The notes under the pieces are model-generated. The model was not told the origin of the DNA, made no database searches, and saw only the letters and a program-made list of their open reading frames with translations. From an uncultured Clostridia bacterium (GTDB lineage Bacteria; Bacillota; Clostridia; Oscillospirales; Acutalibacteraceae), in the NCBI GenBank assembly GCA_947631855.1, contig CANRMX010000013.1, positions 1-48,490 of the forward strand: DNA of 48,490 nucleotides, written 5' to 3'. Each line of letters begins with the position of its first letter. Positions within the stretch are counted from its first letter, which is position 1. Made by a program: the position numbers and the translations under genes. Shown one piece after another: positions 3,224-43,719 of the stretch.

Positions 3224-3268
3224 TTTTGGCCCCCCGCTTTTTGCGTTTGTTTCTTCCACTTTTTCGTT

Positions 3269-3299
3269 GCTCTCCCCCGCCCGTAGGGCGGGGGAGAGC
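3269..3299. terminator. Perfect 14-bp hairpin after asnB
   Basis: GCTCTCCCCCGCCC and its exact complement flank a 3-base GTA loop, 45 bp after the asnB stop. It is followed by AATTAATTAAT rather than a pure T tract. It probably terminates asnB and is one of a class of very GC-rich intergenic hairpins in this window. Confidence 0.6.
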
Positions 3300-3370
3300 A
3301 ATTAATTAATGCTCAGAGAAAAAGTAGGCAAAAAAGAACTTTGCTTGGCTTGACCGAACAAAGATAAAGA

Positions 3371-17590: not shown

Positions 17591-17616
17591 TTCCTTTTTC
17601 TTGAAAGAAAAAGGAA
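17591..17616. repeat. Perfect 12-bp-arm inverted repeat upstream of fabG
   Basis: TTCCTTTTTCTT and AAGAAAAAGGAA flank GA. It lies just upstream of fabG, on the border of the 84-88 bp repeat array; the same AAGAAAAAGGAA arm recurs at about 17777-17788. Confidence 0.7.
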
Positions 17617-17842
17617 GCAAAAAGAACTTTATTTGGCTCGGCTTCAACTCAGCCGAAAAGTCCGCCTTTGCGGTTCTGCCCGTCTTTTCCGAAAGACCGG
17701 GCAAAAAGAACTTTATTTGGCTCGGCTTCAACTCAGCCGAAACGTCCGCCCTTGCGGTTCTGCCCATCTTTTCCGAAAGAAAAAGGAAGCAAAAAGAACT
17801 TTATTTGGCTCGACTTCAACTCAGCCGAAAAGTCCGCTCCTG
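17617..17842. repeat. Three direct repeats (84 and 88 bp period) between fabD and fabG
   Basis: Copies start at 17617, 17701 and 17789, each beginning GCAAAAAGAACTTTATTTGG. Each contains an inner hairpin GGCT-CAACTC-AGCC, extended in copies 1 and 2 to TCGGCT/AGCCGA. Copies 1 and 2 also share a second segment ending TTTTCCGAAAGA; copy 3 is shorter. Related words (AAAGAACTTT followed by TTGGCTYG) occur near 3335-3350 and 1260-1280. No open reading frame of known type is present. Confidence 0.85.
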
Positions 17843-17847
17843 CGCCT

Positions 17848-39507: not shown

Positions 39508-39929
39508 TCACGTGCGGACAGGCGTGCCGCCGCCCCTAGGCAGCAGATTGTAATTCCACGGTGGGCACTCGCCGGGCATAGAAACAAACTGCAACCGCAG
39601 GCCACCCCTCTTAGGGGTGGTCTGCTCTAACATTACCCACGTCCCGGTCTTGCCGGCGTGCCGCCGCCCCGAGGCAGCAGATTATAATTCCACGGCGGGC
39701 ATTCGCCGGGCATGGAAACGAACTTCAACCGCAGGCCACCCCCCTTGGGGGTGGCCTGCTCTCATATTATCCTCTTCCCGGTCTAGCAGACGCACCGCCG
39801 CCCCGAGGCAGCAGATTGTAATTCCACGGCGGGCACTCGCCGGGCATACAAACGAACTGCAACCGCAGTCCACCCCTTGGGGGGTGGCCTGCTCTACTAT
39901 TACCCGCGCCCCGGCCTTGCCGAGGTCGC
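39508..39929 (-). repeat. Array of three extra copies of the gerQ-like 3' end (134-136 bp period)
   Basis: Equivalent points lie at 39526, 39660 and 39794, with the gene's own copy at 39930. On the minus strand each unit has a hairpin, an LxFV-type lead-in, then the peptide frame MPGECPPWNYNLLPRGGG with a 5-8 residue variable tail and a stop codon. Frames are 39767-39847 (26 aa), 39633-39713 (26 aa) and 39508-39579 (23 aa). None has a ribosome binding site. Hairpins at about 39866-39893, 39732-39760 and 39597-39625 follow each stop. The differences between frames are nearly all synonymous. Confidence 0.9.
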
Positions 39930-40328
39930 ACCGCCGCCCCGAGGCAGCAAATTGTAATTCCACGGCGGGCACTCACCCGGCATATAGAAATACACAAACT
40001 TCACCGAGAAGATGTCGCAGACGATGAAATTATTCACCGCCTCGTCGTACAGGGTGACGTAGCTGCGCCCCACCAGAAACAGCATCCCCTGCTTGCGGAC
40101 GATCTGCCCGGTGCCGATAAGGAACTCGATCACCACATACTGCCCGATGTTCCGGGCCAAGATCGCCTGCATGGAGCCCCTCAGCTCCGGGGTGTCGAAG
40201 CTCTGCTGGGCCGGGATGTTGATGTTATCCAGCCGCCGGCTGCCGTCGGGGAATTCCTGAAAATCGAAGCGGTCGTACAGTCTTTGCAGGGCGGCGGTGC
40301 GGCCCTGCTGGGCGGAACTCATATCCAT
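39900..40328 (-). CDS. GerQ-like spore coat protein
   Basis: The 142-aa protein has a central conserved domain: LRGSMQAILARNIGQYVVIE, VGRSYVTLYDEAVNNFIVCD and IFSVKFVYFY. It resembles GerQ (YwdL) spore coat proteins, which in Bacillus become cross-linked and are needed for CwlJ-type germination hydrolase function. The ATG at 40328 follows AAAGGAG. It lies 25 bp after a SleB-like gene, matching the functional link. Its C-terminal 27 residues, from MPGECPP on, are the segment repeated downstream three more times. The name is by resemblance only. Confidence 0.7.
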   Translation of the reverse strand: MDMSSAQQGRTAALQRLYDRFDFQEFPDGSRRLDNINIPAQQSFDTPELRGSMQAILARNIGQYVVIEFLIGTGQIVRKQGMLFLVGRSYVTLYDEAVNNFIVCDIFSVKFVYFYMPGECPPWNYNLLPRGGGATSARPGRG

Positions 40329-40353: not shown

Positions 40354-40797
40354 TCACGTCTCCGCATAGGCCGCCGTGGGGTTATAAAAGCAGTGCTTGC
40401 CGATCCGGACGGCCAATTCCCCCACCATACTCGGGAAAAAGTCCCGGCACTCCTCGGAAAAGGGATTGAAAAACCACAGGGCAAATCCCAGATTCGTCAG
40501 GCGATTGCCCGCCATGGCCCAGTCGGCCACGTCGTATTCCACTTCTGTGGGGCGCATGTTGTAGATATTCTGGGGATTGTACTCCCCGCCCAGCTCCGTG
40601 CGCACGCAGGCAAACTGTCCCGGCTGGAAGATCACCTCCGGGATGGTGTAGAAGTGGCCGTATTCGCCGTAATCCACCTCCACCCGGTTCATGATCACGC
40701 TTGCCACCGCTTTCATGCCGATCTCGCCCTCGCCGCCGGCCTCGCACTGGCAGAGCCGGGCCAGCAGCTCCCGCTGGGAAAAAATGCCCTCCTCCAC
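40354..40797 (-). CDS. SleB-like cell wall hydrolase
   Basis: The 147-aa protein has the SleB/CwlJ hydrolase-2 signature: ELLARLCQCEAGGEGEIGMKAVASVIMNRV with its catalytic Glu, and a late LWFFNP and HCFYNPTAAYA. It has no signal peptide and no peptidoglycan-binding domain, so it is the CwlJ-like short form. The GTG start at 40797 is chosen because AAAAGGGGGC precedes it and the longer reading adds only low-complexity residues. With the GerQ-like gene it suggests a spore cortex lysis pair. Confidence 0.78.
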   Translation of the reverse strand: MEEGIFSQRELLARLCQCEAGGEGEIGMKAVASVIMNRVEVDYGEYGHFYTIPEVIFQPGQFACVRTELGGEYNPQNIYNMRPTEVEYDVADWAMAGNRLTNLGFALWFFNPFSEECRDFFPSMVGELAVRIGKHCFYNPTAAYAET

Positions 40798-40919
40798 GGG
40801 CCCGCCCCCTTTTCCGCTTTTGGGGAAGTATATGCTGCGCCGCTGCCGGGTATGTTGCGCAATTTGCCCGGGTCGATTTTCCCCTCCCCGCCCTTTTTGA
40901 AAAACTTCCGCCAAAACGA

Positions 40920-43594: not shown

Positions 43595-43669
43595 AAGGCA
43601 GCTTGCTTGTGCCCGCTGACTGTACGACGCCAATGGATAAGAGCCTCCCTGCCCTGTTATTATGATTAT

Positions 43670-43696
43670 GGCCTCCCCGCCGAAGGCGGGGAGGCC
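43670..43696. terminator. Hairpin after the esterase gene
   Basis: GGCCTCCCCGCC and GGCGGGGAGGCC pair perfectly with a GAA loop and are followed by ATATTATATAG. The neighbouring GAGCCTCCCTGCCC (43641-43654) repeats a word from the hairpin at 3371-3397. Confidence 0.6.
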
Positions 43697-43719
43697 ATAT
43701 TATATAGTTTGCCGCCAGT

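Follow-up and report, generated by a model that had tools for sequence, protein, structure and literature searches.

Silent copies of gene ends behind a gerQ-like gene and other genes of an uncultured Clostridia bacterium

Why would copies of a gene's 3' end that lie beyond its stop codon, outside the gene itself, differ from one another mainly at synonymous sites? The question is raised by a stretch of 48,490 nucleotides from an uncultured Clostridia bacterium (hereafter the window), which is contig 13 of a fragmented, 81% complete assembly of 1.84 Mb (G000). The window holds a gerQ-like gene of 142 aa whose end recurs downstream (Table 1), and gene-end copies were also found at other genes and in other species.

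The gerQ-like gene and its array

The gene that hosts the array has matches in all 29 same-genus genomes, its own counted, and its direct upstream neighbour is a Hydrolase_2 gene; this synteny makes a functional link to the lytic enzyme CwlJ possible. None of five aligned family members matched a Pfam family at E ≤ 5, an NCBIfam search at E ≤ 0.001 gave no match, and the family profile found no GerQ chain among PDB sequences at E ≤ 1. The predicted structure, itself of modest confidence (mean pLDDT 60.6, core blocks 67–80), had a single PDB fold match at E ≤ 0.001, namely GerQ 8ZRA (E = 3.5e-4; TM 0.75 by target, 0.43 by query). The filament core of GerQ is described as a fold of helices and five strands (PMC11405398), and with modest confidence the 142-aa protein is predicted to share it while matching no sequence family. 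The array encodes residues 116–142, which lie beyond the last predicted strand (residues 109–115) and the predicted folded core, and pLDDT is below 50 from residue 128 on.

As originally predicted, four gene-end copies lie head-to-tail on the minus strand, at spacings of 136, 134 and 134 bp (TRF score 665, 86% matches). The hairpin behind the stop had been expected to recur three more times; it recurs twice, copy 4 being without one. Hairpin 3 differs from hairpin 2 by one C-G to T-A change that keeps the pairing. By eye, a CGGT that stands inside the gene is also present behind each hairpin, a 4-bp microhomology, and its position in the gene is a possible 5' breakpoint of the unit. The longest exact repeat inside the array is 24 nt, and copies 2–4 have one diverged junction in common. 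Nothing resembling a ribosome binding site is seen by eye ahead of the Met of the extra copies, in agreement with the prediction. Intrinsic terminators were rejected as a full account of the array, as the hairpins fold well and have no T-run. A dispersed mobile repeat carrying the gerQ end was likewise rejected: the unit is restricted to one locus, and only short, chance-level stretches of it were found elsewhere in the 1.84-Mb assembly. At positions 17603–17844 of the window, an 84-bp tandem repeat of 2.8 copies with inverted repeats lies between two minus-strand genes.

Divergence had been described as synonymous-only, which is true of the 18-codon core and untrue of the tail. All four cores encode MPGECPPWNYNLLPRGGG, and each of the eight changed sites is synonymous; the chance of this under neutrality is 1.7e-5 to 6.4e-5 (kappa 1–5), a flattering value because the core was chosen by eye. 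Among the three silent cores, five of five changed sites are synonymous (chance 1.0e-3 to 2.4e-3). When the end is taken as a whole, copies 2 and 3 show six synonymous and two nonsynonymous codon differences, the latter being A>T and S>P in the tail. Copy 4 carries A>V in its tail and terminates early in TGA, and the tail of copy 1 has one additional in-frame codon. The homology begins ahead of the Met, where nonsynonymous differences are present as well (Q/K FV C/S). Nonsynonymous changes and stops, which had been named beforehand as signs of a decaying array, do therefore occur, mostly at the far ends of arrays: in gerQ copy 4, in the last two copies of the G005 array and in a frameshifted UDG copy of G000 (see below). 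The suggestion that the copies are alternative C-terminal cassettes found no support: they are 83–86% identical to the gene and encode one core peptide, and cassettes with different peptides were rejected.

Table 1. Features of the gerQ locus and examples of a hairpin family common in G000. Positions refer to the window unless another locus is named.
Feature	Position	Strand	Remarks
Hydrolase_2 (SleB/CwlJ-type cell wall hydrolase) gene	40354..40797	-	Pfam PF07486, E=2.5e-21 on 40354-40800; start from gene model
Gene with predicted GerQ fold (142 aa), array host	39900..40328	-	same-genus matches; best PDB fold match GerQ 8ZRA
CGGT in gene, possible 5' breakpoint of unit	40003..40006	-	by eye
Copy 1, expressed gene end (27 codons + stop)	39900..39983	-	core ATG at 39983
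Hairpin 1, 3' of stop, no T-run	39865..39892	-	fold z = -2.63
Copy 2, silent end MPGECPPWNYNLLPRGGGASARPGRG and stop, QFVC ahead of Met	39767..39847	-	core ATG at 39847
Hairpin 2	39731..39759	-	fold z = -5.22
Copy 3, silent end MPGECPPWNYNLLPRGGGTPARPGRG and stop, KFVS ahead of Met	39633..39713	-	core ATG at 39713
Hairpin 3	39597..39625	-	fold z = -3.09
Copy 4, silent end, intact core, shortened tail TPVRT and stop, no hairpin behind	39508..39579	-	core ATG at 39579
Hairpin with core CCCCGCC..GGCGGGG	43665-43701		
Hairpin with core CCCCGCC..GGCGGGG	3267-3301		
Hairpin with core CCCCGCC..GGCGGGG	L087 11536-11576		
Hairpin with core CCCCGCC..GGCGGGG	L096 9770-9800		

Gene-end copies at other genes and in other genomes

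We sampled 845 kb (46%) of G000, the window included, called genes by a simple hexamer scheme of our own and looked for copies of each gene end in up to 1.5 kb of the DNA beyond it; the sampled stretches were mostly contig starts and not a random sample. Silent 3'-end copies reaching the stop (15 copies) were found at 10 of 761 genes, nine of them outside the window, and 5'-end copies at two of 761. An eleventh 3'-end case was dropped as weak (L106; 46 nt, 74%, ~1.1 kb away, mismatches 1/2/9). Besides the gerQ-like gene, the ten comprise, by Pfam, an acyltransferase-like gene, a UDG-family gene, an M20-type peptidase, two aldo/keto reductases, an isomerase-like gene, a YmdB-like gene, a methylguanine methyltransferase and one gene with no Pfam family. 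These genes, together with an array at a UDG-type gene of G006, rule out a phenomenon specific to gerQ. A mirror case was seen in G000 (L085, 2208-3237), where the 5' start of a gene is present in about seven copies; the 150-bp unit comprises ~25 codons with the start codon and an upstream GC hairpin, and the copies have synonymous and nonsynonymous differences.

Elsewhere, 3'-end copies were found at one of 360 genes in the G005 sample, which took in the gerQ contig on purpose, and at two of 313 in G022, one of low complexity and the other of 70 nt with mismatches 0/2/1. There were none among 402 genes in 400 kb of G003, a complete, one-contig genome of the same genus, among 115 genes in 149 kb of G028 or among 89 genes sampled in G016. 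G006 had two such genes in 74 kb that included loci known to carry arrays; in 60 kb chosen without knowledge of arrays, the end-copy scan found none and two looser repeat clusters touched a gene end. The gerQ array of G005 has a 94-bp unit made of the last 15 codons and the hairpin, with five extra copies of which the last two are decayed, and the array at the G006 UDG-type gene has a 107-bp unit of two types. Both are independent of the gerQ array in G000.

Other details were observed at gene ends in these genomes. Behind the G006 UDG-type gene (L240), units stand in a-b-a-b order, a higher-order repeat. At a second G006 locus (L232), the last ~50 codons and the hairpin of a minus-strand gene at 619-1461, which we take to be aldolase-like, are present once more at 435-589, with coding differences confined to the first half of the copy, as after partial conversion. 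In G028 (L184, 17385-17710), a 98-bp, three-copy array begins right at a stop codon and is non-coding.

Arrays were rare among orthologues. At the gerQ locus they were present in two of 29 same-genus genomes (G000 and G005), the other 27 loci having none, and at the UDG gene in two of 27 genomes with a match (one of 26 others). No array was found at the methyltransferase gene in 28 other genomes or at the isomerase gene in 10 others; weak hits at the orthologues of these three genes lay away from the gene end or within the following gene. Because few genes were tested and some genomes are repeat-rich, we claim no hotspot at gerQ. Across the family, the gerQ gene was matched in 69 of 250 genomes; TRF detected no gene-end array at 27 new family-level loci (L041–L067, with ~1.5 kb flanks), and an end-copy scan of 10 of the loci L041–L053 gave one weak hit that was not counted (L045; 31 nt, 74%, E = 0.006, 961 nt away). 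A literature search with a few terms and partial coverage found no description of displaced gene-end arrays.

Codon positions, flanking DNA and hairpins

With each gene compared to one of its copies and the results pooled, mismatches numbered 21/9/51 at codon positions 1/2/3 (242/243/247 sites), and 46 codons differed synonymously and 21 nonsynonymously. If the copy were dead and the gene free to change synonymously, position 2 and position 3 changes would be expected at a ratio of at least 1:2; position 2 showed a deficit against this null (P = 0.0012; 0.008 without gerQ). For pairs of silent copies, where the null is equal change at all codon positions, six arrays gave 7/7/27 (P = 4e-4 against 1:1; 0.0096 without gerQ and 0.011 without the G006 UDG array, which contributed 1/1/9). 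These pairs were the two gene-nearest copies per array that passed the scan; this dropped one copy of the G000 UDG array that lies closer to the gene but is weaker (72%), and the pooled counts exclude gerQ copy 4, in which the stop region is missing. Taken together over genes, most of the divergence of the copies falls on third codon positions, also when silent copies are compared with each other. Some arrays look neutral, the exceptions being the L079 pair (1/3/2), the frameshifted UDG copy of G000 and the last two G005 copies. Equal divergence at all positions, the mark of a plain neutral tandem repeat, was not seen over the six arrays together, although single arrays such as L079 do fit it.

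Identity of the coding copies is 97% at L083 and 87% at L090, yet behind the two stops the DNA is unrelated (14/33 and 17/32 matches in forced alignment). Such a pattern fits ends that differ in origin; the gene would have acquired a new end while its former one stayed where it was. One L079 copy is likewise unrelated behind its stop (8/32). Most other copies have the gene's post-stop DNA too (for example gerQ 34/39, UDG 40/40), and since end and following DNA repeat as units at the gerQ, L112 and UDG genes, tandem growth took part. Polarising the changes with orthologues did not show the copies as ancestral or foreign. The isomerase copy has R in SGRHID, as do nine of 10 orthologues (the tenth has C and none K), where the gene has K; the copy branch had 1/0/6 changes versus 1/1/2 on the gene branch, with more synonymous change on the copy branch.

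Within 120 nt of the stop, eight of the 10 displaced-end genes have a hairpin, versus 132 of 355 others with mostly noncoding DNA in that interval (P = 0.008). Among the commonest hairpins in G000 is a REP-like family with the core CCCCGCC..GGCGGGG and variable outer stems, which was not among the commonest in the G003, G005, G022, G006 and G028 samples. All six genomes tested have a ComEC-type gene, and DNA uptake is therefore possible; because the gene is also present where no displaced ends were found, competence does not account for the difference between genomes.

Origin of the copies

Since only one end per chromosome is expressed, the coding-like differences between silent copies mean either that these diverged in different genomes or that the silent copies are themselves selected. 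Of the ideas put forward in the original prediction, the best fit is that homologues replaced the gene end repeatedly, given this silent divergence and the pattern at other genes and species. We hold the chances to be even that the copies are displaced gene ends, that is, divergent alleles that arrived through hairpin-associated duplication or replacement and recombination and were shuffled by unequal exchange. Gene end, stop and hairpin stand in tandem with only the first end inside the gene, and the differences, pooled over genes, are mostly synonymous. Most of this divergence would have arisen while each copy was the expressed end in another strain or species, the donors being presumed. Homologous recombination, by transformation or another route, would then have brought the alleles side by side, with crossovers between gene end and silent end, and unequal exchange may later have lengthened, shortened and reshuffled the arrays. 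The association with hairpins suggests that these may favour the breakpoint or the duplication that starts an array. The copies would have no function of their own and would decay mostly from the far end. As copies 2–4 have a common junction, the array would predate their divergence, and whole arrays, not only genes, would have been exchanged. Counting against displaced ends are the common post-stop DNA of most copies, as plain tandem copies would show, the neutral-looking copies, the presence of ComEC in genomes with no displaced ends and the outcome of polarisation.

Several of these points suit a simpler history, which we consider unlikely: tandem duplication driven by the hairpin or by microhomology, followed by drift in place, the synonymous excess reflecting a small sample and selection on the expressed end. 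The tandem structure is clear, CGGT offers a possible microhomology, and most of the sampled genomes, G028 included, have local repeats between genes (39 in 845 kb of G000, 15 in 400 kb of G022, nine in 149 kb of G028, four in 390 kb of G005, one in 400 kb of G003 and none in 100 kb of G016). However, position 2 changes are too rare both between gene and copy and between silent copies, and the unrelated post-stop sequences at L083 and L090 do not fit. Drift in place explains the silent pairs poorly because, of two copies that lie silent in the same chromosome, at most one could serve as the expressed end.

It is quite unlikely that metagenomic strain variants were strung together in assembly. 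Coding end copies came from fragmented assemblies (G000, G005 and G006), with none in the sampled parts of the one-contig G003 and of G028. Yet the longest exact repeat at gerQ is shorter than usual assembly word lengths (it is 51 nt at the UDG gene and 68 nt at L112), the stretch read contains no Ns, and the junction of copies 2–4 is diverged and common to all three. Multi-copy arrays of 94 and 107 bp also recur in two other assemblies, and G028 has its 98-bp array at a stop, though a non-coding one.

Little probability attaches to selection on the silent copies, as short translated peptides or as ends tested whenever a deletion fuses one to the gene. The coding-like divergence among them would be explained, but by eye the gerQ copies have no RBS-like sequence, copies read at other loci begin mid-gene, none of the unit lengths (134, 94 and 107) is divisible by three, and the copies terminate in stop codons. 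Frequent deletion fusions should, we reason, homogenise the copies too, and the involvement of many unrelated genes is hard to square with such selection.

In pilin-type systems, an expressed gene is accompanied by a tandem series of partial copies that are silent, and a store of cassettes that recombine into the gene and vary its C-terminus would share that layout, but it is very improbable here: switching would alter nothing in the core because the cassettes encode one core peptide, ordinary enzyme genes (UDG-family, methylguanine methyltransferase) have end copies too, and 27 of the 29 gerQ loci have no array. If exchange were common enough to have consequences, the copies should, by the same kind of reasoning, have become alike. 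Silent copies in antigenic variation encode variant peptides, whereas these have an identical 18-residue core, small tail differences and no sign of switching, so that membership in a known silent-cassette system is unlikely.

Displaced gene ends have other parallels elsewhere. In Rhs/CDI genes, a former C-terminal end remains silent downstream of the gene that replaced it, as an orphan tail. The likeness lies in the former end staying silent behind the gene; unlike the ends described here, which encode nearly one peptide and belong to ordinary genes, Rhs/CDI tails are functionally diverse and encode toxin and immunity. Merodiploids of S. pneumoniae arise by tandem duplication when incoming homologous DNA recombines, and alternative pairing with donor DNA gives adjacent copies of a segment that may differ in allele (PMC3784515). 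The duplications described there span ~100–900 kb between repeats, with one 3.3-kb case without flanking repeats (PMC3784515), whereas units here are roughly 100–200 bp, lie at gene ends and usually include a hairpin. As to adjacent alleles of different origin, what we observed is coding-like divergence and the unrelated 3' flanks of L083 and L090, with polarisation giving no clear answer. A donor end could also be inserted, with the old end left downstream, by homology-facilitated illegitimate recombination (PMC3240628), which combines a homologous joint with an illegitimate one; in our case, donor and event are presumed.

A broader proposal is tentative, and we think it possible rather than probable: in several species of one genus (Neglectibacter, judging by named relatives), post-stop hairpins may drive recurrent renewal of gene ends, with the previous end left downstream, such that ~1% of the genes in one genome would keep an archive of their own 3'-end alleles from other strains. 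If the displaced-end explanation is right, non-expressed DNA beside ordinary genes holds several strain-level end alleles in one chromosome, past recombination becomes visible without population data, and silent repeats with an excess of synonymous change are not necessarily translated. If the link to hairpins holds, post-stop hairpins would be breakpoints at which gene ends are renewed, and the archives, if real, would let past recombination be read from one genome alone.
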